The notes below the pieces were generated by a model, which saw only the letters and a list, made by a program, of their open reading frames with translations, was not told the DNA's origin and ran no database searches. 64,000 nt of DNA. It comes from Paraglaciecola sp. T6c. GTDB lineage: Bacteria > Pseudomonadota > Gammaproteobacteria > Enterobacterales > Alteromonadaceae. Positions 5,833-46,315 of the stretch are shown here, piece by piece; positions within the stretch are counted from its first letter, which is position 1, and each line of letters starts with the position of its first letter. Position numbers and translations under genes: made by a program. The stretch spans positions 4,278,001 through 4,342,000 of the forward strand of contig NC_008228.1 of the NCBI RefSeq assembly GCF_000014225.1, in the 5' to 3' direction.

Positions 5833-8598
5833 ATGGATAAAACATTTAGCCCACAAAACATTGAACAGCAATGCTACCAAGCGTGGGAAGATAAAGGCTA
5901 TTTTAAAGCCAGCGGCGAAGGCCAACCTTACTGCATATTACTACCGCCCCCCAACGTGACTGGCAGCTTACACATGGGCCATGGTTTTCAACAAACCATC
6001 ATGGATACGCTAACTCGTTATCACCGTATGAAGGGTGACAATACCTTATGGCAATGCGGTACCGACCACGCGGGCATTGCCACGCAGATGGTGGTAGAAC
6101 GTCAGTTAAACGCCCAAGGTAAAACCCGTCACGACTTAGGTCGTGAAGCGTTCGTTGAAAAAATTTGGGACTGGAAGAAAGAATCTGGTGGCAACATAAC
6201 CCAACAGATGCGCCGTTTAGGTACGTCACCCGATTGGGATCGTGAAGTATTCACCATGGATGACGACTTATCGGAAGCCGTGAACGAAGTATTTGTTCGC
6301 TTGCACGAAGAAGGCCTGATTTACCGCGGCAAACGCTTAGTCAACTGGGATCCGGTATTGCACACTGCGGTATCAGATTTAGAAGTACTTAGCGAAGAAG
6401 AAAATGGCTTCATGTGGCATATGCGCTACCCATTAGCCGATGGCACAGGTGAGCTGATTGTCGCCACCACGCGCCCCGAAACCATGCTGGGTGACACAGC
6501 CGTTGCGGTTCACCCTGATGATGAGCGTTACCAAGGCTTTATCGGTAAGCAAATCAAGCTGCCGATTACAGGCCGTCTTATTCCGATCATCGCAGATGAC
6601 TACGTTGAGCAAGACTTCGGTACTGGCTGCGTAAAAATTACCCCTGCCCATGATTTCAACGATTACGACATGGGTAAACGTCATAACCTAGAGATGATAA
6701 ACATTCTCACCGATGACGCCAAAATTAACGATGTTGCCCCTGAGCAATACCGTGGCCTTGACCGCTTTGATGCACGTAAGCAAATCGTCGCTGATTTAGA
6801 CGCCGCAGGCGTATTGGTTAAGATTGAAGACCACAAATTAAAAGTGCCCCGAGGCGATCGCTCTGGCTCGGTTATCGAACCTTATTTAACCGATCAGTGG
6901 TATGTGGCAGTTCAAGAGCTAGCGAAACCCGCAATTGATGCCGTGAAAAGTGGCGAGATTAAATTCGTTCCTGAAAACTGGGACAAAACCTATTACCAGT
7001 GGATGAACAACATTCAAGACTGGTGTATTTCACGCCAACTTTGGTGGGGTCATCGCATACCTGCTTGGTATGACGAAAATGGCAAAATCTACGTTGGCCG
7101 CACAGAAGCTGAAGTACGCGAAAAGAACGGCCTTGATGCCAGCGTCACATTGCGCCAAGACGAAGACGTGTTAGATACGTGGTTCTCTTCTGCCCTATGG
7201 CCATTTGCTACTATGGGCTGGCCAAAGAAAACCCCAGAGCTTGATACTTTTGTACCTAGCGCCGTATTGGTTACCGGTTTCGATATTATTTTCTTCTGGG
7301 TAGCCAGAATGATCATGATGACCAAGAAATTCACTGGGCAAATTCCGTTTAAAGAAATTTATATCACCGGGCTTATCCGCGACGAGCAAGGCGATAAAAT
7401 GTCTAAATCGAAAGGCAATGTTATCGACCCTATCGATTTGATTGACGGTATCAGTATTGATGACTTAGTCGCCAAGCGCACCTCAGGCATGATGCAACCT
7501 AAACTAGCCGCTAAAATCGAAAAGAATACCCGCAAGAGCTACCCAGAAGGCTTTGCTGCTTATGGCACCGATGCATTGCGCTTTACGTTTGCTGCGATGG
7601 CGTCTACCAGTCGCGACATCAGCTTTGATGTGAAGCGAGTTGAAGGCTATCGCAACTTCTGTAACAAGTTATGGAACGCATCGCGTTTTGTGATGATGAA
7701 CGCTGAAGACCAAGACACTGGCGCAAATGGCGGCGACATGGAGCTTAGCCTAGCGGATAAGTGGATTTTGGCGCGCTTCCAGCAAACCTTGAAAGACTTT
7801 GAAGATGCCTTAACGGGTTATCGTTTCGATATTGCAGCGAACTTGGTGTACGAGTTCACTTGGAATCAATTCTGTGATTGGTACTTAGAGCTATCGAAGC
7901 CGGTACTTAACTCTGAAGTGAGCACTGACGCGCAAAAACGCGGTACCCGCCATACATTGGTCAATGTACTTGAAAGCATTTTGCGTTTAGCGCATCCGAT
8001 TATGCCGTTTATCACAGAAGAGATATGGCAGAGGTTGGCGCCGCTATGCGGCATTCAAGCCGACAGCATCATGACTCAGCCATTCCCAGCACAAAGCGAA
8101 GCGCTGCGCGACGAAGACACACTGGCTGAAATGGAGTGGATCAAAAGCGTGATTGTGGGCATTCGTAATATTCGCGGCGAAATGGATATCTCACCTAATA
8201 AACCGTTAAATGTGTTGCTTCGTAACGCCAGTGCTCAAGATTGGCAACGTTTGCAAAGCAGCCGTGAGTTTTTAGGGGCGCTAGCCAAACTTGAAAGCGT
8301 TGAATTGTTGCAGCCAGAAGAAGAAGCCCCTGCCAGTGCTACCGCGCTAGTAGGTGAGATGGAGATTCTTATTCCTATGGCTGGGCTAATAGATAAAGAC
8401 GCAGAACTGGCCCGGATTAACCGTGCGTTAGCAAAAATTGAAGCTGACTTTGGCCGTACTCAAGGTAAATTGAGCAACGAAAAATTCGTTAGCAATGCAC
8501 CACCAGCGGTCATTGATAAAGAAAAAGCCAAGCTTGATGACTTCACCATGCAAATGACGAAGTTGAAAGAGCAGAAACAAACCATTGAAAATTTGTAA
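5833..8598 (+). CDS. valS: Valyl-tRNA synthetase
   Basis: This class Ia synthetase charges tRNA-Val. The 921-residue length fits. The HIGH-type motif is HMGH at 47-50, inside [14 protein letters not shown]. An editing domain (CP1) includes [19 protein letters not shown] and removes mischarged threonine. The KMSKS motif is exact at 522-526. The anticodon-binding domain follows, and the C-terminal 70 residues form the Lys/Glu-rich coiled coil that grips the tRNA. It is the last gene of pepA-holC-valS, and a strong hairpin follows the stop. Confidence 0.98.
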
Positions 8599-8608
8599 GT
8601 AGTCCCTC

Positions 8609-8638
8609 CTGCGCAGGCCTACTTGCCTGCGCAGTTTA
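8609..8638 (+). terminator. Terminator after valS
   Basis: CTGCGCAGG (8609-8617) and CCTGCGCAG (8626-8634) form a perfect nine-pair stem with an eight-base loop, followed by TTTATT. It lies 10 bases past the valS stop. Confidence 0.75.
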
Positions 8639-8722
8639 TTGCCGTCGATATCTACACGAACAGTACACGTCATTTAACTCGCACACCTTGTAAAATCAGT
8701 GCAGAATGCATTTGTCGCCAAG

Positions 8723-8764
8723 TCTGGTGTGAAAAGTGTGGTGAGAAAAGTGCGGTGTGAAAAG
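8723..8764. repeat. Three tandem copies of a 14-bp unit
   Basis: The unit is close to TGTGGTGTGAAAAG, at 8723-8736, 8737-8750 and 8751-8764, with one or two changes per copy. It lies in the gap between valS and the nucleotidase-like gene. No function is evident. Confidence 0.7.
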
Positions 8765-8873
8765 CCTCTCGTAACAAGAATTGATTGAGAAAAGAGATTT
8801 ACGACAATAAACGAAAACAATTGGTATAAATTAGACTAATAGCTGACTATTGAATAACGTCAATATGTAATAC

Positions 8874-10439
8874 TTGCTTGATACATTTCAGCTAGTTACA
8901 CGCTCTTTTGATCTAGGGGACTGCAACATCAATCGGATACAATTTGTACTTTTGTGCATCAGCATGCTGACGTGTTTTTCTTATAAAGTCACCGCTGACG
9001 TGCCTAAAAGTGAGAATGTGACAATCATCTACGCATCTGACATGCCGGTTATAGGCTTAAAACATGTCGGAGGTTATCCTGAGCTCTCTAGCGCACTGCA
9101 ATTGTATCGCAATCAAAAAGATACCAGCACGTTTTTTTTATTCGGTGGCAACAGTCTGGCGCCTAGTCCGCTTTCATCCCTAGACCGCGGCACACATATC
9201 ATTGATATTCTTAATAGCCTAGAGCCCGACGTCATGTCTGTCACTAAGCGTGAATTTAGCTATTTTGAAGACGAATTGTCATTACGCTCCTACGAAGCGG
9301 CTTTTCCACTGATATCCAGTAATGTTTATGACAAACGCAGTAAAGCCAATGTAGACGGACTACTCGATTACGTCATAGTCGAGCAAAAAGGGGTAAAGCT
9401 CGGCGTTATTTCTGTGCTAGATGATAGCGCTATCACTGACTATTTATTAAAGCAGATTGTCATTCGCGACCCACAGCAAATCATTACTGAAACATCCAGA
9501 ACGTTGCGAGAAAAAGGCGCTGACATTGTCATCTTAATGTATTCCTACAGCTTTGCGTTTATAGATCAGCTATTGAACAAGCAGATTATCGACATATCAG
9601 TAACAACAACACCTGAGTCCACGATCATACCTGATGAAGTATTACCTCAACATCCTCACGCCGTTGTGTTGAATTACCTGAATCACTTAGCTGAAATAAA
9701 CTTAAATGTGCATACCGGCAAGAAACCTAAGCTCGACATAAGCTGGGTTAGCAAAAACCTATCGGAATTTTCCAAAGAGCCCATAGTTGCTGGGCAAGTA
9801 AAGGGCTATACATCTCGCTTAAACCGCCTACTCGATCAACCCATCGCTAACGTTACACAAGCTTTTCAAACCAAAAGAAGCAGTGTACGCACCGAAGAGA
9901 ATGCCTTTGCTAACGCCGTGGCTGATGCATTGAAATCATTCGCCAATGCCGATATGGCACTGCTTAACGGTGGCATCATTCGCGGAAATCGCTCATACAC
10001 CAAAGGGCAACAACTCACACGCCGTGAAATCGCTGAAGAATTACCCTTTCGCAGCAAATTGGCTGTATTAACAGTGACGGGTTTGCAGTTAAGAGCTGCG
10101 ATTGAAAATGGGTTAAGTGAGATTGAAAATGTTCGCGGCCGTTTTCCGCAGATTTCAGGTATTGAGGTTAAATACGATTCAAGTCAAAAAGCAGGGGAAC
10201 GGGTTGTGTCTATCACGCTCGATGGTAGAGCAATTGTGCCAACCCGAGCCTACAAATTAGCCACCACAGACTACATGGCACAGGGCGGGGATGGCTATCA
10301 AGTACTCAGTGCTTGCCCTCAGATTACGCTGGGATATATGGAGCCGCCAATGGTGGTTGACGTATTTATGGAAAGCATGAGAAATAGCAAAGAGTTAGGA
10401 CCAAATTTAGATGAGAGACTGGTAGATATTAATGAGTAA
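8874..10439 (+). CDS. Secreted 5'-nucleotidase-like protein, probably catalytically inactive
   Basis: The 521-residue protein follows the UshA/5'-nucleotidase plan, an N-terminal calcineurin-like domain plus a C-terminal substrate-binding domain. The C-terminal domain is well kept: NAVADALKSFANADMALLNGG near 340-362, EELPFRSKLAVLTVTG, and YKLATTDYMAQGGDGY near 458. The N-terminal metal motifs are lost. The DxHG position reads DMPV (D56), the GGD position reads GGN (91-93), and GNHEFD reads TKREFS (124-129). A signal peptide lies around residues 22-42 (FVLLCISMLTC, then VTADVP), so it should be periplasmic. The TTG start at 8874 is uncertain: it leaves a long N-terminal region, and GGGGAC near 8917 has no standard start after it. 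The stop overlaps the next gene by 8 bases. Confidence 0.75.
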   Translation: MLDTFQLVTRSFDLGDCNINRIQFVLLCISMLTCFSYKVTADVPKSENVTIIYASDMPVIGLKHVGGYPELSSALQLYRNQKDTSTFFLFGGNSLAPSPLSSLDRGTHIIDILNSLEPDVMSVTKREFSYFEDELSLRSYEAAFPLISSNVYDKRSKANVDGLLDYVIVEQKGVKLGVISVLDDSAITDYLLKQIVIRDPQQIITETSRTLREKGADIVILMYSYSFAFIDQLLNKQIIDISVTTTPESTIIPDEVLPQHPHAVVLNYLNHLAEINLNVHTGKKPKLDISWVSKNLSEFSKEPIVAGQVKGYTSRLNRLLDQPIANVTQAFQTKRSSVRTEENAFANAVADALKSFANADMALLNGGIIRGNRSYTKGQQLTRREIAEELPFRSKLAVLTVTGLQLRAAIENGLSEIENVRGRFPQISGIEVKYDSSQKAGERVVSITLDGRAIVPTRAYKLATTDYMAQGGDGYQVLSACPQITLGYMEPPMVVDVFMESMRNSKELGPNLDERLVDINE

Positions 10440-21615: not shown

Positions 21616-23070
21616 ATGCCTGAGTATGCGTCAGATAACGTTCTACCCTCTCGTTGGTATCGTGCTGTCGCGTTTGTCGCGTTATGGTTAATTGTTTGGC
21701 TGTTAGCACAATTGATGGAATACACCGCCCACGCAAGTGTGTGGTTTCCCGTGTCAGGCTTAACCTACGCAGCTCTATTAATTATCGGTATCAGGGCAAT
21801 TATACCGCTTATGCTGTGCGCAGTGATAGTGACCATACTGACTTGCATCCAGTATTCCCTCCCGCTAAATCCCCCCCAGATGATACAAGCGGGTCTTTTG
21901 TTCGGTTTGGCCCATATTTTACCTTACTGGTTGAGTGCATATCTATTTGCTTGGGTAGCCCGTCAAGACAAACTCAGTACACCTGGGCTGATTATCCTGT
22001 ATATCATTCACACCGGCGTAGGGTCACTTGTTACGACTATGTTGGTGATCTTCAGCTTGATTTACAGCAATATGATGACTGCGTCTGAAATAGGCCAAGC
22101 ATGGTTACCCTTTTGGATCGGTGATTATGTGGGTGTGTTGGTATTAGCGCCGCTTTTTGGTGCTTTACTTAGTCGATATTTCTCACATGAGCGCTTTGAT
22201 CTCGAACAATATCTAAGCCCGAATCAAACCACAACCAGCTCCGAGTACCCGCATAAAATTATCGTCGTCACCTTACTCGTCATACTAACCACTATACTCA
22301 ATCAGTACTCAGGTCAACAAGCGAGTGCCTTTGCTATTTTCCTGCTCGTGCTGCCGCATATGTGGATAGCATGCACGGAAAGCGCACTGTTCAACCTACT
22401 CAGCTTAACTTACAGCTGCATTATCATCGCGCTATTCGTCAACATTTTTGGATTAAATGAATTCGCCTTAATTTATCAATTTGCCATTGTGATCGTTGCT
22501 TCCAATGCCCTATTCGGTATTGCTGTCCCCGCATTGATGGCACACAACGAAAAACTGCAAGCTATCGTCACCACTGATGCACTGACCCAAGCTGCGTCGC
22601 GTCAACATTTTATGCAACAAGCTGAACGAGCAGTAAATCGCAGCCAAAATGACGAGGTGCCGTTGTCACTTATCATGTTTGACATGGATAACTTCAAAAA
22701 AGTAAATGACACCTTTGGCCATAGTGCTGGCGATAAGGCCTTGCAGAGGGTTTGCCGGGCGGCGCAACTGTCCCTGCGCCCCACAGACTTACTAGGGCGT
22801 TTCGGCGGCGATGAGTTCGTGGCGCTACTGCCAGATTCAACCATTAACGATGCTCAGCAAGTAGCACAGCGGATTTTGAGCAATGTTAACGCCGCCGAAG
22901 TCGCTCCTGGTCAGCCGATAGAATGTAGTTTTGGTGTGGCACAGCTTAAGCGTAATCAGAACTTCACAGAGCTATTTAACGTAGCCGATAGCGCGTTGTA
23001 TAAAGCCAAACAAAGAGGTCGAAATACAGTCGTTAATGAAGATGGAGTGGAACTTAAATCTGCCATTTGA
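21616..23070 (+). CDS. MASE1-type membrane diguanylate cyclase
   Basis: The 484-residue protein has an N-terminal MASE1 sensor of about eight membrane helices over residues 15-310, with the family stretch [15 protein letters not shown]. The GGDEF domain begins near [10 protein letters not shown] (about 328). The active-site motif is GGDEF at 397-401, and RPTD at 388-391 is an intact I-site, so it should make cyclic di-GMP with product inhibition. MASE1 ligands are unknown. It appears monocistronic and overlaps the end of convergent ung by 17 bases. Confidence 0.93.
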
Positions 23071-23722
23071 TAGGCGTACGTCCGCTGTCGAGCAAGATTT
23101 GATTGGTTTGAGCGAAATGCCCACATTCGAAAAAGCCACGATAAGCAGATAATGGGGATGGGTGCGCAGCGGTTAAAATATGGTGCTTTGAGGCATCAAT
23201 AAGCCCTGCCTTTTTCTGGGCATGACTGCCCCACAACAGAAATACCACGTCTTGAGCATGCTCATTGATAAGTGCAATCACTTTGTCGGTGAATCTCTCC
23301 CAGCCAATCTTGGCATGCGAATGGGCTTTACCTTGCTCAACGGTGAGCACTGTATTAAGCAAAAATACACCTTGCTCAGCCCAAGATTGCAAACAGCCAT
23401 GCTCAGGCACCACAAAATCAGGAAAATCGTGCTGCAGTGCTTTGTACATGTTTTTCAAAGAAGGGGGTGTTTTCACGCCTTTTTGTACTGAAAAGCTCAA
23501 ACCATGGGCCTGATTAGGCCCGTGGTAAGGGTCTTGCCCAAGAATAACCACTTTGATTTGATTAAACTCGGTGCAACTAAAGGCATTAAATACGTCTTTA
23601 GCGGCGGGATAAACCACTTTACCGTTCGCTCGTTCGCTAGCAATAAAGTTCATCATGTCGGTGAAGTAAGCTTGCTGCTTTTCTTCACCGAGTAGCGTGT
23701 GCCATGTTGCGGCTTGCGTCAT
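23054..23722 (-). CDS. ung: Uracil-DNA glycosylase
   Basis: Ung removes uracil from DNA and starts base-excision repair. The 222-residue protein has the family-1 signature [18 protein letters not shown] with catalytic D64, and the [12 protein letters not shown] loop that reads the minor groove. The length is normal. It lies tail-to-tail with the MASE1 cyclase (17-base overlap) and 30 bases after thrC, so it may partly be read through from the threonine operon. Confidence 0.97.
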
Positions 23723-33136: not shown

Positions 33137-34078
33137 TGAATGATGATGTCTAGCGCGTCTATTGTTTTAACTACTTTTTATTAACTCGCCTGTTAAAACG
33201 ACTAAAAATCTTGAATAGGGCTGTCATCAGCCCTGCCCAATACGACTTGATAAAGGCATATCGTGCCGCCCCCATGTATTACGCTGGAATGCCATTTTGA
33301 CTCCCAAATAAAGCCAAGAGAAAACCAGCTCAAAGCATGAGAGAAAATTTAAGATAGGCCTAGCTAACGCTTTCAAAACAACACGGCGTCAGCAACACCA
33401 ATATAAAACTTGTCCAATCAACGTTATAAACACGAGCCTAAATGAAACACTGTAAACTCGATAGGTGACACTGCGCCCTACCCTATCTTTGAAACTAGCA
33501 GAGCGATAGCCAAAAAGGGATAACGTCGCTATTAAAATGCGCTTGAAGCTCCCCTAACGAACACATTTCATACCTACCTAAACCTAGACGCTTGCCTAAC
33601 AACTGACTTAGCGCGCCGCTTCCTTCTCAGCGTTCAATATTCTTGTCAAAACCCGCAACCGGCCTGATTTAAAGTACTTAAATTCTTGTTGTCGGAATAT
33701 CCACCTTGAAGTCGGTCCGAGCTATTACGAAATTTTAAATACGGATCTATTTATAAGTTTGTTGAAAGTGCGTTTCGTTGCAAAGGTGGTGAAAAAGAAT
33801 GTGTATAACAGGCCCTTTAGGTTAAGGGCTGTGATGGGGTAAGCAGTGATAGGGTCTGAGTACTTTTTGCGGCAACCGTCTCGCCTATTAAAAAGCATTC
33901 TGCCCCTTTTTACTAATAATCCTTTTAATTTAGAATGCAAATTGTACTGTATATTTATACATGATATAAACCCTAAGATAATTTAAAAACCAAATAACGG
34001 ATACACACGTGTTGTTTCATCATTTCTGACAGAATCGACCGCTTTTGTGTATTTGCTAAGAGAAAGTAATAATCTGCG
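33137..34078. other. Long gap at the accessory region with a dispersed repeat
   Basis: About 940 bases without a convincing gene. A hairpin AGGGCT/AGCCCT lies at 33217-33234 after the kinase gene. At 33617-33682 there is a diverged copy of the repeat found again at 39434-39500 and 40321-40386. A minus-strand frame at 33725-33940 has no ribosome binding site or family resemblance and is probably spurious. Confidence 0.5.
33617..33682 (+). repeat. Dispersed intergenic repeat, copy A (diverged)
   Basis: It shares with copies B and C the order CTTCCTTCTCAGCG, then TTCAATATTC, then AACCGGCCTGA. The terminal hairpin seen in the other copies is mutated here (GATTTAAAGTACTTAAATTC). Confidence 0.55.
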
Positions 34079-35320
34079 ATGCATGACAAACTGATTCAAA
34101 AACTCGAGATCCTCTCAGATGCAGCTAAGTACGATGCATCATGTGCAAGCGGTACGGCAGGTAAACGCAAGGCTGGGAAAACTGATAAAACGGGCATTGG
34201 TTCGCTTACTGGCGGTACAGGAATATGCCACAGTTTTACCCCTGATGGCCGCTGTGTCTCATTACTAAAGATACTAATGACGAACTACTGTATTTACGAT
34301 TGTCACTATTGTATCAATAGAGTATCAAGTAGTGTTCAACGTGCTCGTTTCACTGTGAAAGAAACGGTAGATTTGACACTGAATTTTTATAAGCGCAACT
34401 ATATCGAGGGCTTGTTTCTTAGCTCAGGTATCGTCGGTTCCCCTGACCTTACAATGGAAAGCATGGTGCGTATTGCAAAGTCGTTACGTATCGATCACGG
34501 GTTCAAGGGGTATATACACCTTAAAACAATTCCCAATGCCTCGCCTGAACTACAGGCTGAAGCGGGTTTATATGCCGACAGGCTTAGCATTAATGTAGAA
34601 ATGCCGACCCAGCCTTCATTAAATAAATACGCGCCAGAAAAAGACCTCGGCGCTATTCATAGCTCGATGAATACTCTGAAAGACAAAATAGCCGAGCATA
34701 AAGTAGATAAAACGCATACCGGCAAACGTCCACCTCGCTTTGCCCCTGGCGGACAGTCTACTCAAATGATCATAGGGGCCGATGGCTCAAACGATAAAGT
34801 CATTTTGGGAACAAGTGTTAAACTTTATAGCCAACAAAAGCTACGCCGCGTTTATTACTCTGCGTTCTCGCCAATACCTGATGCGTCTGAGGTTTTACCG
34901 CTCAAGCCAGCGCCTTTGATCCGCGAGCACCGTCTTTATCAGGCTGATTGGCTATTGCGTTTTTATGGCTTTAATCTTGATGAAATCTTGCACGATGACA
35001 TGCTTGATATGGACCATGATCCTAAACTCGCGTGGGCATTGCGCAATCGTCATGTATTCCCCATCGATTTGAATAAAGCCGACAAACTGATGTTGTTACG
35101 AGTACCTGGTCTTGGTGCGCGCACCGTACAAAAAATTGTAGCGATCCGCCGTTATACAAAGCTTAACTGGATGGATCTCACTAAAATGCGTTTGCCATTA
35201 CAAAAGCTAAAACCTTTTATTACTGTGAATGATTACTCACCTGCTATTCACTTACTCGATAGCAATAATTTTGAGCTGCAGTTCAAACAGCCAAAACAGT
35301 TTGAGCTCTTCGGCGCCTAA
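34079..35320 (+). CDS. Radical SAM protein, putative DNA modification/repair
   Basis: The 413-residue protein matches the radical SAM family found paired with DUF4130/uracil-DNA-glycosylase-like proteins (TIGR03916 type, from memory). The SAM cluster cysteines are C71, C75 and C78 in CIYDCHYCINR. Before them are the family stretches GTGICHSFTPDGRCVSLLKILMTN, and after them FLSSGIVGSPDLTMESM and IHLKTIPNAS. A helix-hairpin-helix segment near 338-360 (DLNKADKLMLLRVPGLGARTVQKI) suggests DNA contact. The reaction is unknown. It is followed after 16 bases by its usual partner. Confidence 0.9.
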   Translation: MHDKLIQKLEILSDAAKYDASCASGTAGKRKAGKTDKTGIGSLTGGTGICHSFTPDGRCVSLLKILMTNYCIYDCHYCINRVSSSVQRARFTVKETVDLTLNFYKRNYIEGLFLSSGIVGSPDLTMESMVRIAKSLRIDHGFKGYIHLKTIPNASPELQAEAGLYADRLSINVEMPTQPSLNKYAPEKDLGAIHSSMNTLKDKIAEHKVDKTHTGKRPPRFAPGGQSTQMIIGADGSNDKVILGTSVKLYSQQKLRRVYYSAFSPIPDASEVLPLKPAPLIREHRLYQADWLLRFYGFNLDEILHDDMLDMDHDPKLAWALRNRHVFPIDLNKADKLMLLRVPGLGARTVQKIVAIRRYTKLNWMDLTKMRLPLQKLKPFITVNDYSPAIHLLDSNNFELQFKQPKQFELFGA

Positions 35321-35336
35321 ACGACGTAGCCTCAAG

Positions 35337-36131
35337 ATGAAAAAAATTACCATCACTTCCGTGCCCGGATATAACGAGTGGCGCAAAGCATCAAGAGAAT
35401 GTTTAGCGCAAGCTATCTCCCCTGAAAACATTATTTGGCAAACTTCAGAGTCCATACAGGACGACTTGTTTGGCCATCCTGAAGAGGTTATTGCGGCCCC
35501 TAAAGGGCAAATGAAACACACCATTCCCAAGTCAATATTAATGCTTTTTAAATACGCGTTGTGTCATCGAGATGCTAGCCGCTTCGCACTGTGTTATCGG
35601 GTTTTATGGCGCGTTATTTTCGAGAACAAAAACCTTATTCAGCTAAAAACTGACGAAGATATAATGCAGCTTGTTACTTTAGCCAAAGCGGTAAAACGTG
35701 ATGCATACAAAATGAGTGCTTTTTTGAGGTTTAGAGAAGTTGCGCTTGACGGACAAGAGCACTTTATCGCTTGGTATGAACCCGAGCATTTCAGCTTAGA
35801 GGTTAAACTCGACTTCTTCCAAACTCGCTTTAAAAATATGCGCTGGTCGATACTGACGCCTTATAGGGCTGCCCATTGGGACACTGAAAAGCTAGTGTTA
35901 GAAGATAATCCCGACCCGAGTGTGTGTCCTGATGAAGACCGTATCGAAAAATATTGGCTCACTTATTACACTAATATATTTAATCCCGCCCGTATCAAAA
36001 AGAGCGCGATGCTAAGCTCAATGCCCAAAAAGTACTGGAAGAACATGCCTGAAACAGCACTGATTGACGATATGATTCGAAATTCAGATGCAAGAGCTCG
36101 CAAAATGATTATCGATGGGAATAAACGCTAA
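35337..36131 (+). CDS. DUF4130 protein, partner of the radical SAM protein
   Basis: The 264-residue protein is of the DUF4130 type (TIGR03915, 'probable DNA metabolism protein', from memory). It opens ITITSVPGYNEWRKASRECLAQAISPENIIW, with a central FALCYRVLWRVIFENK and the block KRDAYKMSAFLRFREV. A further block reads HFIAWYEPEH, then RFKNMRWSILTPYRAAHWD. In many bacteria this domain is fused to a C-terminal uracil-DNA-glycosylase-like domain; here the protein ends at MIIDGNKR with no such domain. The ATG at 35337 lies 16 bases after the previous stop. Its function is unknown and is inferred to involve DNA. Confidence 0.88.
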   Translation: MKKITITSVPGYNEWRKASRECLAQAISPENIIWQTSESIQDDLFGHPEEVIAAPKGQMKHTIPKSILMLFKYALCHRDASRFALCYRVLWRVIFENKNLIQLKTDEDIMQLVTLAKAVKRDAYKMSAFLRFREVALDGQEHFIAWYEPEHFSLEVKLDFFQTRFKNMRWSILTPYRAAHWDTEKLVLEDNPDPSVCPDEDRIEKYWLTYYTNIFNPARIKKSAMLSSMPKKYWKNMPETALIDDMIRNSDARARKMIIDGNKR

Positions 36132-36182: not shown

Positions 36183-36929
36183 TTATTCCTCAGCTTTTAT
36201 ATCTTCGTTAGTACTGCCATCTTTTTCTTTCTTGCTTTCAAAAAGTTCGTCTAAATTTAATTGGAAGCAATACCATAGACCTAAAGCACTAAGGAACACG
36301 AAAAACAGCGCCATTAAAGGTGAATAATAGAATACGGTATACTCTGTTAAGGAAAGTTTTCCCGCCACCTCCTTTAAATAAACCCTGCTATCTTCAGGAG
36401 CATCATAACCTTCATTTGATACAACGTAAAAATAACGTCCCTCCTGAGTATTCAATAAATCTAATATTTTTCCATCACTCATTTCAAGCCCTCCGAAGTG
36501 TTCATTAATCCTGAAACGCTCCCCAGCATCGGTTTCATATACCTGAAGTCTTAACAAGTACTCAGAAGTTTCCTCAGCAGCTATAATTAAAAAATATGTA
36601 CTTACAATAATGACGGACAAGTAATGTAGAGCAATGGGAGCAATAAGCAAAGGCAGTTTTTTACCTTTTGCCAATCGATAGAAAATTAAGAGAAGGATTG
36701 GAAATAAGATGGAGTTCGTAGCGTAACTAGTAACTGAATCCAAATCGAGCAGGTATAGCTGACTTCCGTCATTTTGTGGCAAGTTAGTTAATATTGAGCT
36801 TTCCGCAGGGTAAATAATCGCCCCTATAGCCCGGTCAAGCATATAAATTGCTAAAATCAAAAATGCGATCAGAAAACTTGAATTTTTAAGGTTTGAAAAA
36901 CTTCCCTTTAACTCTTTAATATTTAACAT
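36183..36929 (-). CDS. Four-helix inner membrane protein of unknown function
   Basis: I do not recognise this 248-residue protein. Hydrophobic segments are clear at about 18-42, 72-86, 93-117 and 200-222. A soluble loop of about 80 residues (120-200) lies between the third and fourth, and the C-terminal tail is acidic/lysine-rich (ESKKEKDGSTNEDIKAEE). The coding strand is AT-rich compared with neighbours in the core. It is separated by about 250 bases from the lipoprotein cluster upstream on the same strand. A remote link to that cluster is possible. Confidence 0.7.
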   Translation of the reverse strand: MLNIKELKGSFSNLKNSSFLIAFLILAIYMLDRAIGAIIYPAESSILTNLPQNDGSQLYLLDLDSVTSYATNSILFPILLLIFYRLAKGKKLPLLIAPIALHYLSVIIVSTYFLIIAAEETSEYLLRLQVYETDAGERFRINEHFGGLEMSDGKILDLLNTQEGRYFYVVSNEGYDAPEDSRVYLKEVAGKLSLTEYTVFYYSPLMALFFVFLSALGLWYCFQLNLDELFESKKEKDGSTNEDIKAEE

Positions 36930-37183
36930 ATTAACTTAATCCTTTTGCGAGAAAATTAGGCCATTAAACTTCCAAAACTGCAATATTGTAGTCGGCCAAA
37001 CTTTACATTTACAAAGTTTAAGGTTGAATTTTTGTTAATCAAATTAGCTATACCACTACAAACCAACGTTCTTTTCTCTTTTCTCCATCAAAATCTTAAT
37101 TCATTTTAATAAATACACTGTAATTCATCTAGTGATAGATCAGCGCAGTTTAGAAGAACGCTTATCCACTATAAATTAACAAT

Positions 37184-37357
37184 TTATGCGCTTTGTGCTA
37201 TCCACCTTCCTTTACTTCCATCCGCTTTCTCTTCAAATTCGATTTTCATCAAGTTCTCGGTGTTCCATCTTCCTTCAAGTAACTCAATCATTCGTTTATT
37301 TTTTTCAGTAGCAGTGTTAGTGGTTAATTCATTGTCTCTTAATTTCGTCAGATTCAT
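37184..37357 (-). CDS. 57-residue small protein coupled to a lipoprotein gene
   Basis: The ATG at 37357 is preceded at 7 bases by TGGAGG, and overlaps the upstream gene's TGA as ATGA. Both point to real, coupled translation. The product begins MNLTKLRDNELTTNTATEKN and includes RMIELLEGRWNTENLMKIEF. It is hydrophilic, highly charged and mostly helical by composition, with no signal peptide. Therefore it is predicted to be cytoplasmic, unlike the lipoproteins before it. No family is recognised. Confidence 0.7.
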   Translation of the reverse strand: MNLTKLRDNELTTNTATEKNKRMIELLEGRWNTENLMKIEFEEKADGSKGRWIAQSA

Positions 37358-38673
37358 GATGAGCCTCCATGAGAAAATTTACTAATTACATATTTAAATA
37401 ACACTTTTACATCTTTGTCTTGGGCTAATATTTGGTAATGCTTAGTATATTCTTGTTTAAGTTTACTAAGATTGTCTTCAACTACTTTTACATCAGCATC
37501 AGAAGGCACACGTGACCATATTTGACTCCCATCACTTTTCAAATAATTCACAGTAATTGGAGCAGGTGCTCCATTTGCATCTAAATTATTCTTTGCACTT
37601 TTCATCCTGACTAAAGCGCTTTGTGTGGTACCAATATTGCTATCTAAGTCAAAAACATAGCCGTAAAGAGAGTCAAAGTCGTTACTTTTAATACTAAGAT
37701 CTGACTGGCGAACGTCATTTGGGGAAACACTATCTTCATAACTGATAATATTTTTTACTTCAGAAACACTAGACATATTGTAAGTTTTTTTGTTGACCCT
37801 ACTAAGGAGATCTGATGCATATCGATCTTTATCAGCATATGCTTCAATTGTGCGTTTTAACGCAGGAAGTATCGTCAATGCTCCTGAAGTAAGACTAACA
37901 TTAGCCTCTGGGTCCAACCTATTAATCATTGCGATTCTAACTTCAGGGTGTGTCGCTAAATAACTAGCAGAATCACCTGTCGCAAAATATTGTAAGTATT
38001 TCCGCTTACTTTTATTACTTTCACTACTACCCGGTGGAACATTCAAATTGTCGTAAACAAAGTCCAACGTAGCCAATAAGGACGTTTGATCGACGTAGTG
38101 TTTATTTGATTCTTCAGAATGCGAAATAGGTAAAACCGCTAGTTCTTTTCTGTTAAAGCCAAGAGTGAAGCTATCTGGAACGGAAGCCGTCATTGCAGAC
38201 CAAGAGAGATTCAATCCGAGACTTGTTTTAGTTGCAAAAAAAACAGGCCTTATTTCATTAGTTTGTAGCGGGTTACTCTTGTCAGTTTTTGATTTATGAG
38301 GTGCTCTATTTAATTCCAGCTTGGATTTAAATGGTTCGCCTTCTGTAGCAGAATTATAAAGGCGAGCCATTGTTACAGCTGCATTACCTGTTGCAAATGT
38401 TGAACTTATATCACCAGAAAAAAGTCCATCACTTTCAGTCTTAAAACTAGCGAGTGCCGGGAGTGTTTTCCCACCTTCAAATTGCGGTGTGATTACCCCT
38501 TCATTTCTAGAAATATCTAGGGCTACTGTTGGTGGGGTACTAGTAACTTCAAGACCTACATTGCTTTTAGTATAAAAGGCTGTTGAGTCTATACCGACGC
38601 ATCCAGACAATACAAATATTGCGAAACTAGTTGTTAGTATTCCTTTCCTCGGATTCATTTTTGCAAACTCCAT
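37354..38673 (-). CDS. Lipoprotein of unknown function
   Basis: The 439-residue product starts MEFAKMNPRKGILTT, and its signal peptide ends in the lipobox LSGC (Cys at 25, or 20 if the ATG at 38658 is used). Serine at +2 is absent (VGID follows), so outer-membrane sorting is likely. The mature part begins with a beta-like stretch (VALDISRNEGVITPQFEGGKTLPALASF) and has a helical, charged C-terminal third (SALVRMKSAKNNL, LSKLKQEYTKHYQILAQDKD). No family was recognised. It overlaps the upstream lipoprotein gene by 32-47 bases and the downstream small gene by 4, so the three form a tight operon. Confidence 0.75.
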   Translation of the reverse strand: MEFAKMNPRKGILTTSFAIFVLSGCVGIDSTAFYTKSNVGLEVTSTPPTVALDISRNEGVITPQFEGGKTLPALASFKTESDGLFSGDISSTFATGNAAVTMARLYNSATEGEPFKSKLELNRAPHKSKTDKSNPLQTNEIRPVFFATKTSLGLNLSWSAMTASVPDSFTLGFNRKELAVLPISHSEESNKHYVDQTSLLATLDFVYDNLNVPPGSSESNKSKRKYLQYFATGDSASYLATHPEVRIAMINRLDPEANVSLTSGALTILPALKRTIEAYADKDRYASDLLSRVNKKTYNMSSVSEVKNIISYEDSVSPNDVRQSDLSIKSNDFDSLYGYVFDLDSNIGTTQSALVRMKSAKNNLDANGAPAPITVNYLKSDGSQIWSRVPSDADVKVVEDNLSKLKQEYTKHYQILAQDKDVKVLFKYVISKFSHGGSS

Positions 38674-39064
38674 TTAGCATAAAGGGATTAGAGTTATCGA
38701 CCTTCACGTCAATCAAACTTCCTGTTGGCCATTCGAAACACAACAATTGATCACCTGATATGTCCAACAAAGTATTTTCACTGTACCCTATCGTTAAATG
38801 ACTACCTTCACGCAAACTTCCCGCTGCAATACCATAAGAGTTAACTTGATGGAGTACTGCTTTACCTTCATTTTCTCTAGGAACACGCATTTTTACGTGA
38901 GTAAACCCAATTACATGAAGTGTCTGTGTGTCATTGTCAAAATGGGTAACCGAACAACCATTTACTAGAAAAAAGGCAAGAATAAAAAAGGGAATATAGA
39001 AAGATTGTTGCAAATTACGCAGGGTTAAATAGTGCATATAAACAATCCATATTTCAAACAACAA
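38627..39064 (-). CDS. Small lipoprotein of unknown function
   Basis: The 145-residue protein has a hydrophobic signal (YIPFFILAFFLVNGC) ending in a lipobox with Cys at 37. The long N-terminal extension suggests the real start may be the ATG at residue 10 (MHYLTLRN). The mature part has two further cysteines (LLCFEWP and NGVCKNESEE), perhaps one disulfide. No family was recognised. It is the first gene of the lipoprotein/micro-gene operon and overlaps the next gene. Confidence 0.65.
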   Translation of the reverse strand: MLFEIWIVYMHYLTLRNLQQSFYIPFFILAFFLVNGCSVTHFDNDTQTLHVIGFTHVKMRVPRENEGKAVLHQVNSYGIAAGSLREGSHLTIGYSENTLLDISGDQLLCFEWPTGSLIDVKVDNSNPFMLNGVCKNESEERNTNN

Positions 39065-39900
39065 CTTACCTGTTTAAAAAATGAACTACTAATTTAAAAA
39101 TGTCAAGCTTCATTAATTTGCTGGTAAAGCCAGAGTACCCGCTAACCAATCAGCAGGACAAAAAGAAATAGTCGAAGGTCTATTCTACAAAGAGTAGGAT
39201 TAGATTCTGCTCAATGGTTAATCTTAACTACTGAGTTCGAAAAACCTTTTGCTATGCATCAGGTGCTGAGCAAATGATGAATGCGTTCAAGCGCCACACC
39301 CATCATCAACGGCTGCGAGGAATGACGAAAGCAAAAGTTCTGTTAAAGCGTGCTTAAATCAACTCCCAACATTACATATCATGCATATATTGTAGCCTAG
39401 CCCCTTGCCTAAAGGCTGATCTTACATGCCGTTCCCTTCCTCAGCGATCAAGATTCCAATAAAAATCCTCAAACGGCCTGACCTTAAGAAGGTCAACTCC
39501 AATGATTTATCGCGGCCGTTGCAGGAGCCAATAAACGACAAAACACTCGTAGCTGCATTGAATAAAAATGGCCAAGTTCAACGTTAGAAACGGCTACCTG
39601 ACTTTATGGTTATGCGCCAAATACTTTCACAGGAGCAAAGAAAGTGAATCACATAAAGAGATTAACCGGTCATCAAGAGAATAGAGCCCTTTACTGCAGC
39701 AATATTTACAATATTACCCGTAAGATAGTTAGCGAATTTTTGCTCCAGCGATTGTTATGGCGCAAAAAAACGATCCTATTTTCGTTGCGATCAGCCTACA
39801 AGCTGTATTACGACCGCAACTCAAACAATAACGTAAGAAATTGACAAAGTAGGTCTATGGTTTGCAACAAATATTAACTCACAATCTGAAGGGGTACATT
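39065..39900. other. Long gap with decayed coding sequence and repeat copy B
   Basis: About 830 bases with no convincing intact gene. Near 39258-39356 a plus-strand frame reads GAEQMMNAFKRHTHHQRLRG and runs to a stop after KVLLKRA. With an out-of-frame neighbour just upstream (LTTEFEKPFAMHQ), it looks like a frameshifted C-terminal scrap of a gene, possibly a transposase, not identified. A 66-codon frame at 39644-39844 lacks family resemblance. Repeat copy B is at 39434-39500. Confidence 0.4.
39434..39500 (+). repeat. Dispersed intergenic repeat, copy B
   Basis: It shares about 65 bases with copy C at 40321-40386, including CGGCCTGACCTTAAGAAGGT and the following CAACTCC. The segment GACCTTAAGAAGGTC (39480-39494) is a hairpin with arms GACCTT/AAGGTC. 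Confidence 0.8.
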
Positions 39901-40552: not shown

Positions 40553-42739
40553 ATGAAACTTAAATTAGCTTTAGAAAATTGCTATGGAATAAATCAGTTA
40601 AATAGAGAATTTGATTTCACAAAATCAGTAAGTAACGTTGGTGTTAATTCACTCTATGCGCCAAACGGCACGCTAAAAACATCACTTGCTAAAACCTTTA
40701 TCGATGTGATCAACGGAAAAGAAACCAAAGATTTGATCTTTCCTAAGCGTGTGACTAAAAGAAATATCACTATTGATAATGTGGCTATCACTCCTGAGCA
40801 AATCATGGTGATAGAGTCATACAATGAAAGTTATAGCTCTAAGCAAGTTTCAACACTGTTAGTAAACGATACGCTAAAGCAACAATACGATACAGCGTTA
40901 AAAGAAGTTGACCAAAAGCGCACAGCGCTAGTTAAAGCAATAGCGAAGCCAGCAGGTAAAAAAGGCGTTGCTATCAATGCTTTTCCTAAATTAATTTGTG
41001 AAACTTTTGGGAAGCCTGAAAAGACATTCTTAGAGTTACTAGCAGAGTTACAGCAAGAAACAGTGCCGGACTACAGTTACTATACCGCTTATAAGTTTGC
41101 AGACCTATTTAACGATAAGGTATTAGCGGTAATCGCTGAAGGTGACTTTGCCAAAGAGTTATCAGATTACGTTGATACTTACGATAAATTAATTGACCAA
41201 TCAACAGTGTTAACAAAAAGCTTCAATCATCAAAAAGCCGGTATAGTTTCCAAAAACCTTGGCGAGGCGGACTTTTTTAAGGCGAAACATAGTGTCAATA
41301 TATCAGTAGATGGTAAGCCTCAATTGGCTGAAGATTTAGAACAACTAAATGCAATATTACAAGCTGAACAAGAGAAAGTACTCAATAGCGATGACCTAAA
41401 ACAACAATTTGCAAAAATAGACGATAAGTTAAAAACAAAAGATACTGCTGCTTTTAGAGATTTTATTACTGAAAACCCAGCGTTGCTCGCTGACTATCAA
41501 GATATCCCTCAATTTAAAAAAACGGTTATTAAAAGCTACCTACAAGCGCATCAAAGTTTATGGGATGACTTAGTCACAACCTACCAAAATAACCAAGCTG
41601 TGGTTGAAGGTATTATTCAACAAGCTAAAGCCGAACAAACAACCTGGGCAGCTGTAGTTAATACGTTTAACGAACGTTTTACCGTGCCATTTAAACTAAG
41701 CGTAAACAATCAAGATGACGTTATTTTAAATAACCAGGCTCCAACAATTCAGTTTGAATTTAATGATGGACGTAGCGCTCCTGAAATAGTCAACCAAGAA
41801 AGCTTAATTGAAGCGCTTAGCCAAGGTGAAAAACGCGCATTATACATTCTGAATGTGCTATTTGAGGTCGAGGTTAAAAAGCAGCAAGCAATGCCAACGA
41901 TTATCGTCATTGACGATATTGCAGATTCATTCGATTATAAAAACAAATACGCTATTGTCGAATATTTACAAGACATTGCTGGAATAGATATCTTTCACTT
42001 ATTTTCACTGACTCACAATTTTGATTTTCACCGAATAATCAGTAGCAGAGTGGGCGTTAAACGCAAAAATAGATTAATGGCAACGCGTTGTGTTGATACA
42101 ACTGACATTTCCCAAGAAAGATATCAAAATGATGTTTTTGCCGCTTGGAAACAAGAGCTAACAGGTAATGTTGGATATTTATTAGCAAGTATTCCATTTG
42201 CACGAAATATAGCTGAATACTGCGGTCATCAGGCGCACTACACAAAGTTAACCTCTCTATTACACATAAAACTGGATACTACCGATATTAAGGTATCCGA
42301 TCTTGAAAATATCTATAAAGCCATCTTTGCAGACCAACAAGGCTTAGTATTACCAAATCAAGAAAATATATTAAAAGACATGATTTATGCTAAAAGCGAA
42401 GAGTTACTGCAAGGTAATACCGATGCTATAGAGTTAGAAAATAAGGTGATATTAGCCATCTCTATTCGCCTAAAAGCTGAAGAATTTATGATCAGCCAAA
42501 TAAACGATAGTGTTTTCGTTTTGGGTATCACCAAAGATCAAACTAGAAAGCTATTCAATAGGTATTGTGATTTATTTTCAAGCGAGTTAACAATTCAGGC
42601 GTTACTTGATCAGGTAAACCTAATGACGCCTGAGAATATTCATCTTAACTCATTCATGTACGAACCCATTTTAGATATGTCTGCTCATAGGCTTTACAAG
42701 CTGTATGCAGATATCAAACGATTATCAGATACCAAATAA
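40553..42739 (+). CDS. AAA_13-type ATPase, PrrC/RloC-like, candidate anti-phage protein
   Basis: The 728-residue ABC/SMC-like ATPase has a P-loop at 36-44 reading APNGTLKTS: the Lys (K42) is kept, but the usual last Gly is Leu. The ABC signature is LSQGEKRAL (422-430), and the Walker B reads IIVIDDIADSFD with D454/D455; a switch His lies in SLTHNFDFHR. A long, coil-rich middle (about 95-380) has no CxxC zinc hook, unlike RloC. After the ATPase core, RNIAE (551-555) and nearby histidines recall the RxxxE...H nuclease motif of PrrC. That match is loose. The gene is AT-rich, in an accessory region, with a truncated frame 10 bases downstream. Confidence 0.75.
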   Translation: MKLKLALENCYGINQLNREFDFTKSVSNVGVNSLYAPNGTLKTSLAKTFIDVINGKETKDLIFPKRVTKRNITIDNVAITPEQIMVIESYNESYSSKQVSTLLVNDTLKQQYDTALKEVDQKRTALVKAIAKPAGKKGVAINAFPKLICETFGKPEKTFLELLAELQQETVPDYSYYTAYKFADLFNDKVLAVIAEGDFAKELSDYVDTYDKLIDQSTVLTKSFNHQKAGIVSKNLGEADFFKAKHSVNISVDGKPQLAEDLEQLNAILQAEQEKVLNSDDLKQQFAKIDDKLKTKDTAAFRDFITENPALLADYQDIPQFKKTVIKSYLQAHQSLWDDLVTTYQNNQAVVEGIIQQAKAEQTTWAAVVNTFNERFTVPFKLSVNNQDDVILNNQAPTIQFEFNDGRSAPEIVNQESLIEALSQGEKRALYILNVLFEVEVKKQQAMPTIIVIDDIADSFDYKNKYAIVEYLQDIAGIDIFHLFSLTHNFDFHRIISSRVGVKRKNRLMATRCVDTTDISQERYQNDVFAAWKQELTGNVGYLLASIPFARNIAEYCGHQAHYTKLTSLLHIKLDTTDIKVSDLENIYKAIFADQQGLVLPNQENILKDMIYAKSEELLQGNTDAIELENKVILAISIRLKAEEFMISQINDSVFVLGITKDQTRKLFNRYCDLFSSELTIQALLDQVNLMTPENIHLNSFMYEPILDMSAHRLYKLYADIKRLSDTK

Positions 42740-43029: not shown

Positions 43030-43297
43030 TAAACTTGTCATAAGAGCCTGTTTAACTCTTCTACGAAATCCTGAAAATCTTAACTTAAGAAAAAGAAACA
43101 CCTTCTTGTATGGCAAAGCCATGCTTTTGATGTACCGCGACTCCAATTTTCCAGATTTTAGATAGACTTGCCAGATGCTCTGACATGGACGTCAGGGCAA
43201 GGCGAACCGCTTTACATGGATGTTACCTTTCGCCGCTCTGGCATTGAAGTCTATTATAAATATGAATTGAAAATTGGCTGGAGCGCGGCTTCTTTTG

Positions 43298-43405: not shown

Positions 43406-46315
43406 CTACTCTTCTATATAACTCTCAATACTCGGGCAAGAACAAATCAAATTGCGATCCCCGAACACATCATCGATGCGGTTAACCGAAGGCCAGAATT
43501 TGTTTTTCGCTACGCTGGCGACCGGGTATGCCGCTGTGTGACGATCGTAACTGCGATCCCAGTTGGCGTCGCAAATATCATCTAGGGTGTGCGGTGCGTT
43601 GTATAATGGGTTGTCTGTTGCGCTCCACTCACCTGATTCTACTTTTGCCGCTTCTGCGCGAATGCATACCATGGCTTCGATGAAGCGGTCTAGCTCGACT
43701 TTGGCTTCTGATTCCGTTGGTTCGATCATCAGTGTACCCGCTACTGGGAAGCTCATGGTCGGTGCGTGGAAGCCGTAATCGTTTAAGCGCTTGGCGATGT
43801 CGACTTCGGTGACGCCTGATGCTTCTTTAATAGGGCGCAAGTCGATAATACATTCGTGTGCTACGCGGCCATTTCGCCCGCGATACAAGACGTTGTAGTG
43901 GCCGTCTAGCTTATTGGCGATGTAGTTAGCGTTTAAAATTGCTACTTCGGTAGCCTTTTTAAGCCCTGCACTGCCCATCATTTTGATGTACATGTAGCTG
44001 ATGGGCAAAATGGATGCACTGCCCCAAGGCGCTGCAGATACTGCGCCATTGCCGGCACTGGTGTTGCCTGTGTCGATCACTTTATGGTTTGGCAAAAACG
44101 GGGCTAAATGGGATTTAACACCGATTGGCCCCATACCTGGGCCGCCGCCACCGTGTGGAATGCAGAAGGTTTTGTGCAAGTTTAAGTGCGATACATCAGA
44201 GCCAATGTAGCCAGGTGAGGTAATGCCTACCTGTGCGTTCATGTTGGCACCGTCAAGATACACCTGACCACCAAATTCGTGCACTATGTCGCACATTTCT
44301 TTGATGGTTTCTTCGTACACACCATGGGTAGATGGGTAGGTGATCATGGCGCAAGACAGGTTGTCTGCCACTTCTGCGGCTTTCTTGCGTAAATCGGCTA
44401 AATCGACGTTGCCGTTTTTATCACAGTTCACCACCACCACTTTCAGGCTGACCATTTGCGCTGACGCTGGGTTAGTGCCGTGTGCAGAGCTTGGGATAAG
44501 GCAAATATTACGATGCCCTTCGTTGCGGCTTTCGTGGTAACGCTGAATAGCGATAAGACCAGCGTATTCGCCCTGTGCACCTGAGTTGGGCTGCATTGAA
44601 AGCGCATCGTAACCTGTGATATCTAGCAACCATTCGCTTAATTCGCTGAGCATTTGGCTGTAGCCTTGTGCTTGTTCGATAGGCGCGAACGGGTGCAATT
44701 TACCAAACTCAGGCCACGTCACTGGGATCATTTCAGCGGTGGCATTCAGTTTCATGGTGCACGAACCTAAGCTTATCATCGAGTGATTAAGCGCTAAATC
44801 TTTGTCTTCTAGTGATTTGATATAACGCAGCATTTCAGTTTCTGACTGGTAGCTGTTGAACACTTCGTGGGTCAAAATGTCGCTGGTGCGCACTAAATCA
44901 GTCGGAATGGACTGACTGCCTTTCGCCACAATTTGCTGATCAAGTTGGTTAATGTCTAAACCATGATCGTCGCCTAACAACACGTTGAACAGGTTTTGTA
45001 GGTCATCCCGGGTGGTGGTCTCATCAAGGCTGATACCCACAGCGCCGTCTAAATCGGTGCGTAAATTCATTTGCGCGGCATGAGCTGCAGCCACGATCGC
45101 GTCTTTTTTGTCGCCAACATTCACGGTAATGGTGTCGAACCACGTGCTATTGGCCAGACTCACGCCTTTGTCGGCATGTTGAGTAATACCAGCGGCAAGA
45201 ATGTCCGCAAAGCGGTGAATACGTGACGCAATGGTTTTTAAACCATCTGGGCCGTGGTACACAGCGTAGAACGATGCCATGTTGGCCAGTAACACCTGAG
45301 CAGTACAAATGTTTGAGTTGGCCTTTTCACGGCGGATATGTTGCTCACGCGTTTGCAGTGCCATCCGCAAGGCTGGGCGACCACGCGTGTCTTTTGACAC
45401 ACCAATAATACGCCCAGGTAAAGAGCGCTTGTAGGCATCTCGCGTGGCGAAAAACGCAGCGTGTGGCCCGCCGTAGCCCATAGGTACGCCAAAACGTTGA
45501 GCAGAGCCTAACACCACGTCTGCACCCATTTCACTTGGCGCTTTAAGTAGTACCAAGCTCATGATATCAGCCGATACCGCGACTATGCCTTTGTTTGCCT
45601 GAACTTGGGCGATGATGTCGGTTAAATCATTTACTGCCCCTGTGGTGCCTGGGTATTGTAACAAGGCACCGAATACATCATGGCTGGCTGCATCTGCCGC
45701 TTTGCCCACAACGACGTCAAAACCGAACATATCCGCACGGGTTTGAATCACATCAAAGGTTTGCGGGTGTACATCGTCGGCCACAAAGAACAGGTTTGAT
45801 TTTTTGTTTTTCGATACGCGTTTAGCAAGGCCCATGGCCTCAGCTGCAGCGGTAGCTTCATCTAGCAATGAAGCAGAGGCAAGCTCCATTCCAGTTAAAT
45901 CAATGGTCACTTGCTGAAAGTTAAGCAGCGCTTGCAAACGCCCTTGGGCGATTTCCGGCTGATAGGGCGTGTACGCTGTGTACCAACCTGGGTTTTCTAG
46001 CACGTTACGTAAAATAACGTTCGGGGTTAGGGTATCGCTGTAACCCATACCAATGTAAGAACGGTTTACTTGGTTCTTGCTGGCCACGGTTTTCAAATAG
46101 GCCAAGGCTTGTGCCTCAGTTTGGCTTTCACCCACGTTTAGGCTTTCTGGCAAACGAATACCTTCAGGTACGGTTTGCTGCATTAAATCGTTCAACGAGT
46201 CGGCACCAACACATTCCAACATGTCAGCCATTTCAGCTTCACTTGGGCCAATATGGCGGCGAATAAAATCTTGCGTTTGCTCTAACTGCGAAAGGGAAAA
46301 ATTAGCATGTGGCAT
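43406..46315 (-). CDS. gcvP: Glycine dehydrogenase (decarboxylating), P protein
   Basis: The P protein decarboxylates glycine with pyridoxal phosphate and passes the aminomethyl group to GcvH. The 969-residue single-chain form fits. The PLP lysine lies in [18 protein letters not shown], and FTRRHIG-like FIRRHIG is near the start. Other family blocks are YIGMGYSDT and [12 protein letters not shown]. It is the last gene of gcvT-gcvH-gcvP on the minus strand, 204 bases after gcvH with a hairpin in between. Confidence 0.98.

Follow-up and report, generated by a model that had tools for sequence, protein, structure and literature searches.

Genes for a radical SAM protein and a DUF4130 protein stand side by side in Paraglaciecola sp. 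T6c, and the question they raise is what such a pair does. We analyzed them within a 64,000-nucleotide window of the genome (5.19 Mb, single contig), whose proteins have their nearest named relatives in Alteromonas; coordinates are positions in that window unless a genome or locus is named. The original prediction had placed the pair at 34079–36131, and two adjacent plus-strand genes are found there, both above their family cut-offs:

34079–35320, + strand: radical SAM protein of family TIGR03916, 413 aa (profile match; AlphaFold2 model, pLDDT 84)
35337–36131, + strand: DUF4130/TIGR03915 protein, 264 aa, standalone, without a UdgX domain (profiles; AlphaFold2 model, pLDDT 88)

The first protein scores 544.6 bits against TIGR03916 (NCBIfam cut-off 343.5), a family that is presumably COG4277. 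The second scores 215.7 bits against TIGR03915 (cut-off 112.25) and 122 bits against PF13566 DUF4130 (Pfam cut-off 27), the mechanical ORF at 35229–36131 being the sequence scored. Its start is likely the ATG at 35337, 16 bases 3′ of the radical SAM stop codon, because the matching residue opens seven of the eight other Alteromonadaceae ORFs. A promoter and terminator scan returned sites no commoner than in shuffles. Among the loci examined the family spans four phyla (Pseudomonadota, Bacteroidota, Bacillota, and Fusobacteriota), and within the literature searched the pair is indeed, as had been claimed, without a proven reaction: No paper retrieved names TIGR03915 or TIGR03916, a single one names TIGR03914, and none combines "UdgX" with "radical SAM."

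Regulation gives the first indication of function. Upstream of the pair lies a candidate control site:

33945–33964, + strand: LexA-type (SOS) operator TACTGTATATTTATACATGA, 115 bases 5′ of the start codon, two mismatches to TACTGTATATNNATACAGTA

In an alignment of the window with eight Alteromonadaceae relatives, no invariant stretch upstream is longer than CTGTATATnnATACA. Scanned with the pattern TACTGTATATNNATACAGTA at up to three mismatches, the genome shows 18 matches, spread over 12 places; the reversed control has 3. Four of the 12 places were matched to SOS genes or the pair: imuA (no mismatch), the window pair (two), a umuD-like gene (three; 109.6 bits, cut-off 110), and recA (three). 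The window box differs from the strict core CTGT-N8-ACAG at a single base; it is nearer the consensus than the recA and umuD-like boxes of the same genome, and we infer that LexA binds it.

Comparable boxes accompany the pair in other groups. A perfect CTGT-N8-ACAG core is found at seven other gammaproteobacterial loci (L029, L031, L035, L036, L037, L038, and L040) and at the betaproteobacterial locus L149. In Alphaproteobacteria, 70 of the 72 GTDB loci listed have GTTC-N7-GTTC, read in one orientation or its reverse, no more than 160 bases away, L051 and L074 being the exceptions. The starts of other ORFs have it in 24 of 1000 cases. For the loci, narrower filters give 40/40, or 61/62 with 10 loci lacking the anchor. 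Bacillota-type boxes, counted without a background control, are exact at L154 and L157 and one base off at L147, L151, L152, and the Bacteroidota locus L156. The tested boxes are absent, with at most six of eight core bases, from L053, L068, L081, L086, L106 (Xanthomonadaceae), L028, L032, L034, and L113, and are absent as well from L146, L148, L153, L155, and L158. In these box-less groups LexA may recognize different sequences, among which a single further pattern was tested.

A second indication is a putative docking peptide at the end of the radical SAM protein, with a possible counterpart in its partner:

35297–35311, + strand: candidate beta-clamp-binding motif QFELF, residues 407–411 (C-terminal, low-confidence model tail)
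35457–35471, + strand: second, weaker candidate clamp motif QDDLF, DUF4130 residues 41–45 (low-confidence loop)

The radical SAM protein ends in PKQFELFGA. Excerpts of two papers (PMC12309361, PMC4549789) give the beta-clamp motif as QL[S/D]LF or QxxLF and place it frequently at the C terminus of transposases and PolC; the window peptide satisfies the QxxLF form. Its pLDDT of 46–61 in the AlphaFold2 model matches the expectation for a flexible docking peptide. Among 57 aligned homologues, L410 is kept in 55 and F411 in 50, and Q407 in all 57 by alignment only, since the row of L113 has the glutamine without the motif; the rest of the tail is variable.

We recounted the motif in the last 16 residues of each locus's ORF best matching the window protein, covering the best 80 of at least 585 GTDB loci, 9 Alteromonadaceae loci, and 10 other gammaproteobacterial loci. 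The pentapeptide Q..[LMI][FWLY] is present in 69 of the 80 GTDB tails, and the count rises to 79 with hexapeptide forms such as QLSLAL (the miss is L113). All nine Alteromonadaceae tails and eight of the ten others carry the motif (misses L033 and L036), so that it is missing from 3 of 99 tails overall. Narrower ORF filters lost orthologues (65/77; 57/69 loose; 50/69 strict; 66/69 extended, a count that holds the window gene twice, as L001 and L030). Other ORFs at the same loci, which are mechanical and partly spurious, matched in 7 of 1010 cases in the scan giving the loose and strict counts and in 12 of 1010 in the extended scan, and 69 shuffled tails gave the pentapeptide 5.0 times on average. 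The orthologues share descent, so these tail counts are non-independent events. Farther afield, the motif is present at eight of the nine named non-proteobacterial loci fetched, plus L151, with distant forms that include QLILPF, QLILEF, QLSLF, QLKLF, QLSIF, and QLSFF, and QLSLGF in Acinetobacter; the tail of a distant Gemmatirosa protein (L150; 36% identity) is without it. Close relatives mostly keep the DUF4130 loop motif (37 of 49), but it is rare in the other rows (6 of 38) and is seen in 19 of 1010 other ORFs, which makes it the weaker of the two.

From these patterns the radical SAM protein would bind the beta clamp via its QFELF tail. The literature search found no paper joining "radical SAM" with "clamp-binding motif," and docking on the sliding clamp is, to our knowledge, undescribed for radical SAM enzymes. 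The motif is a cheap and specific handle for separating recruitment from catalysis.

Further features of the radical SAM protein lie upstream of this tail:

34142–34144, + strand: codon of C22, the first of three invariant cysteines preceding the triad (candidate auxiliary Fe-S ligand)
34226–34255, + strand: codons C50 to C59 (C-x8-C), the remaining two extra invariant cysteines (alignment)
34289–34312, + strand: radical SAM motif CxxxCxxC, C71-x3-C75-x2-C78 (motif and alignment)
35063–35149, + strand: helix-hairpin-helix (HhH), residues 329–357 (sub-threshold match to PF12836 HHH_3)

The protein has exactly six cysteines, all invariant across the 57 aligned homologues, and the three outside the triad (C22/C50/C59) suggest a second Fe-S cluster. 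The HhH attributed to this protein was located, with a PF12836 score (23.3 bits) that falls below the Pfam cut-off of 27; among solved structures, chains of ComEA and RuvA also match the region weakly. Searched by sequence against solved structures, the radical SAM protein reached a best E value of 0.011 and DUF4130 one of 0.093. Among the 50 fold matches listed for the radical SAM model, the nearest are lipoyl synthase and HydE, and spore photoproduct lyase (SPL) is absent from them. Kinship with LipA by sequence was considered and dropped: A profile alignment against the genome's own LipA covers the CxxxCxxC stretch only.

The pair might alternatively modify DNA bases, for epigenetic or anti-restriction ends. 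Radical SAM chemistry is able to methylate or thiolate bases, the name of TIGR03916 includes "modification," and the lipoyl-synthase-like fold with N-terminal cysteines would suit such a reaction. LexA-type boxes in several groups and the clamp motif nevertheless fit damage handling better than constitutive modification, and by eye the neighbor clusters hold no recurrent partner for modification or restriction, queC/queF lying nearby at one locus, L146; we regard this reading as highly improbable.

In the DUF4130 partner, across 16 sequences of several phyla, only R131, F132, R164, I172, R219, and P230 are invariant. Assignment as a DHH nuclease was rejected: The fold matches are coherent but weak, hhalign against the genome's RecJ gave nothing, and there are no conserved metal-binding DHH residues. 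A DGSFDG stretch in non-proteobacterial members, which we take to resemble DHH motif I, is not conserved. For DUF4130, handling of DNA or lesions is a likelier role than nuclease activity, since its invariant residues across phyla are arginine and hydrophobic or aromatic ones rather than a metal-binding set.

Elsewhere DUF4130 is often fused to a glycosylase domain, and the original prediction described the window protein as lacking it. NCBIfam and Pfam profiles find no UDG domain in the protein, so the absence stands; the wording implies a loss, yet the standalone form is common elsewhere. The ung gene noted at 23.1–23.7 kb (23054–23722) is an ordinary one and, as stated, of a different UDG family. 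The suggested search for the glycosylase elsewhere in the genome ended at the sole other UDG-superfamily protein found (G000:4857485–4857991, 169 aa), which scores 18 bits against UdgX (cut-off 190). We discarded it as a displaced partner because, besides being unlike UdgX, it belongs to the genus core (21 of 22 genomes) and so is far commoner in the genus than the pair.

The fused domain is UdgX (TIGR03914), above cut-off in all six fused proteins scanned (L028, L029, L033, L036, L039, and L149). Within the best 80 of at least 585 confirmed GTDB candidates, 68 loci bear a GEQPG mark, 11 are standalone, and one is without a DUF4130 ORF; counted by GEQPG, fusion therefore holds for 68 of the 79 loci having that ORF. 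A KRRIH-like loop is present in 67 of the 68, and we take GEQPG and KRRIH together to be marks of UdgX, an enzyme that makes a covalent complex at uracil sites. The 12 gammaproteobacterial loci (from 11 of 369 genomes) divide into five that are fused and seven that are standalone by frame length. Outside Proteobacteria, DUF4130 is standalone at all eight named loci where it adjoins the radical SAM gene (Bacteroidota, Bacillota, and Fusobacteriota) and at L151, the DUF4130 assignment resting on Pfam for L146, L147, and L151, on annotation for L146, L154, L156, and L157, and otherwise on alignment. UdgX exceeds its cut-off in none of 15 genomes with the standalone form and in all four with the fused form; the sub-threshold scores in standalone genomes are 57 bits in G549, 53 in G644, and at most 36 in G517, G565, and G141 (cut-off 190). 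A second DUF4130–UdgX protein at L039 (G646:C205; 457 aa) has a partial DUF4130 match and no radical SAM gene in the 3 kb fetched.

Since no fused form turned up at the non-proteobacterial loci examined, UdgX was probably a later addition in Proteobacteria, the pair being the core. The standalone form shows, in silico, a core function independent of UdgX, which leaves models resting on uracil excision alone incomplete.

The surroundings of the pair vary from genome to genome. The pair occurs in 4 of the 16 same-genus genomes listed (its own included), and the segment between shared flanks is variable, which bears out the accessory position ascribed to it; across Alteromonadaceae it is patchy, in 9 of 295 genomes. 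Genomes G141 and G212 have flanks in common with the window on both sides. In G117 the small protein adjoins the pair, and the histidine kinase lies about 10 kb away behind other genes; at L159 (G089:C57:153500–164500), other genes and no pair occupy the interval between the same histidine kinase and small protein. A stop codon interrupts one relative's copy of the flanking histidine kinase (L138:4337–5530). In the window, three ORFs without Pfam matches (36183–39064) separate the pair from the small protein at 39862, and in L136, L137, and L138 the interval bounded by the matching genes holds no homologue of them. Farther along, a TwoAYGGAY RNA motif (Rfam RF01731, 51.6 bits; 43125–43291, + strand) sits just past the 3′ end of gcvP (43406–46315, − strand).

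Several candidate associations were set aside. No conserved operon partner emerged from the eight Alteromonadaceae regions, which keep just the two genes together while other neighbors vary by genus. A DASH cryptochrome beside L034 and, by eye, L032 is confined to one genus. An association with phages or plasmids was rejected: Of 158 plasmid records, 142 were typed non-mobilizable, and two of the 10 phage records are Acinetobacter "phage" MD-2021a contigs. One of the two, L148 (CAKLQH020000003.1), has glyS, glyQ, and further genes of chromosomal character and is probably a mislabeled bacterial contig. The record that holds L151 was submitted as a phage from human feces; there a Rad3/YoaA/DinG-like helicase ORF (7088–9469) comes after the pair.

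An accessory position had also been taken to allow a role in defence, and an anti-phage system would account for the patchy distribution (9/295) within a variable segment. A PADLOC candidate, PDC-S46 (728 aa, ATPase-like, 873 bits; 40553–42739, + strand), lies 4.4 kb downstream of the pair, and the Spirosoma locus L156 has a RES/Xre toxin–antitoxin pair 3 kb away. Neither pair protein, however, matches any PADLOC family, the neighbor clusters common to at least four loci include none that is defence-like (judged by eye rather than by PADLOC), viral contigs yielded one confirmed match among 108 candidate stretches, and the operators at the pair are of the SOS type. The suggestion gained little from the analysis, and we give it hardly any credence.

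A different reading comes from the neighbors at a few loci. At 5 of 81 loci the pair has an imuB-like gene as a neighbor, in Henriciella, three Bradyrhizobium, and one Hyphomicrobiales metagenome-assembled genome, with dnaE2-like genes at four of the five and imuA-like genes at four. One of each was scanned: DnaE2 scored 1459 bits, over its cut-off, ImuA 37 bits against 150, and ImuB gave a weak Pol IV match. The pair might accordingly be a mutagenesis factor serving the ImuA–ImuB–DnaE2 mutasome, altering template bases or easing translesion synthesis and being no repair enzyme itself. The five loci span two alphaproteobacterial lineages, the imuA box of the Paraglaciecola genome is perfect, and apparent SOS control and clamp docking are features in common with the mutasome; a 2013 figure legend (PMC3765255) labels DUF4130 a "predicted mutagenesis-related enzyme." But the other 76 loci have no such cluster, the annotated loci L146, L154, L156, and L157 name no imu- or dnaE2-like gene within 5 kb, and shared SOS control is not a physical link. 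We consider this role unlikely.

The reading we favor is that the pair is an SOS-induced DNA-repair operon docking on the sliding clamp, which we hold to be probable on the sequence patterns described. LexA would repress both genes from the box at 33945–33964, and DNA damage would lead to production of the radical SAM protein. Its QFELF tail would bring the protein to the beta sliding clamp, and with it to forks that have stalled or to newly replicated DNA, where the CxxxCxxC cluster and SAM would generate a 5′-deoxyadenosyl radical acting on a damaged nucleotide. HhH contacts, and probably a second Fe-S cluster on C22/C50/C59, would assist this step, with DUF4130 as the regular partner of the radical SAM protein. 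In many Proteobacteria an added UdgX domain would supply uracil or abasic-site capture. The DNA role foreseen in the original prediction is supported in silico by the LexA-type operators, the clamp motif, the HhH, UdgX fusion elsewhere, and imuB/dnaE2-like neighbors in some genomes; that DNA is the substrate is deduced from these features.

The reaction itself may be direct reversal of a base lesion, a tentative assignment with somewhat less than an even chance, made because of the analogy with spore photoproduct lyase. More doubtful is the fuller arrangement in which the clamp motifs of both subunits, the QFELF tail and the QDDLF loop, would fill two pockets of one clamp dimer, so that a two-cluster enzyme would reverse replication-blocking lesions at SOS-stalled forks, UdgX being added later for uracil and abasic sites. 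If true, it would amount to an SOS branch of direct radical repair alongside translesion synthesis.

Several known systems can be set beside the pair. Spore photoproduct lyase (SplB) is likewise a radical SAM enzyme acting on DNA lesions, but no SPL family is among the Pfam or NCBIfam matches of the window protein, and we know of no SPL with the six-cysteine pattern or a clamp tail of the TIGR03916 kind. Lipoyl synthase and HydE, the nearest folds, differ from the window protein in cysteine spacing. An excerpt of PMC3765255 ties DUF4130 to "SplB-like radical SAM photolyases" and to UDGs "which might modify thymines." SOS proteins that bind the clamp, ImuB among them, have SOS control and a clamp motif in common with the window pair (the ImuB motif is given as QLPLWG in an excerpt of PMC10421592), but ImuB is a polymerase relative, whereas the window protein is a radical SAM enzyme. 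Closest are the TIGR03916/TIGR03915 two-gene system of NCBIfam, which by curated profile has the same proteins as the pair, and the SOS-regulated COG1573–COG4277 "UDG base excision repair" operon: The excerpted text of PMC8565304 reports SOS control of the operon in Bacteroidetes, citing Verrucomicrobia and Alphaproteobacteria, centers its function on the glycosylase, and leaves a clamp motif unmentioned. The pair, in contrast, occurs without a glycosylase, and the window's DUF4130 is standalone; relative to that excerpt, an SOS-type operator on the standalone gammaproteobacterial form is new.
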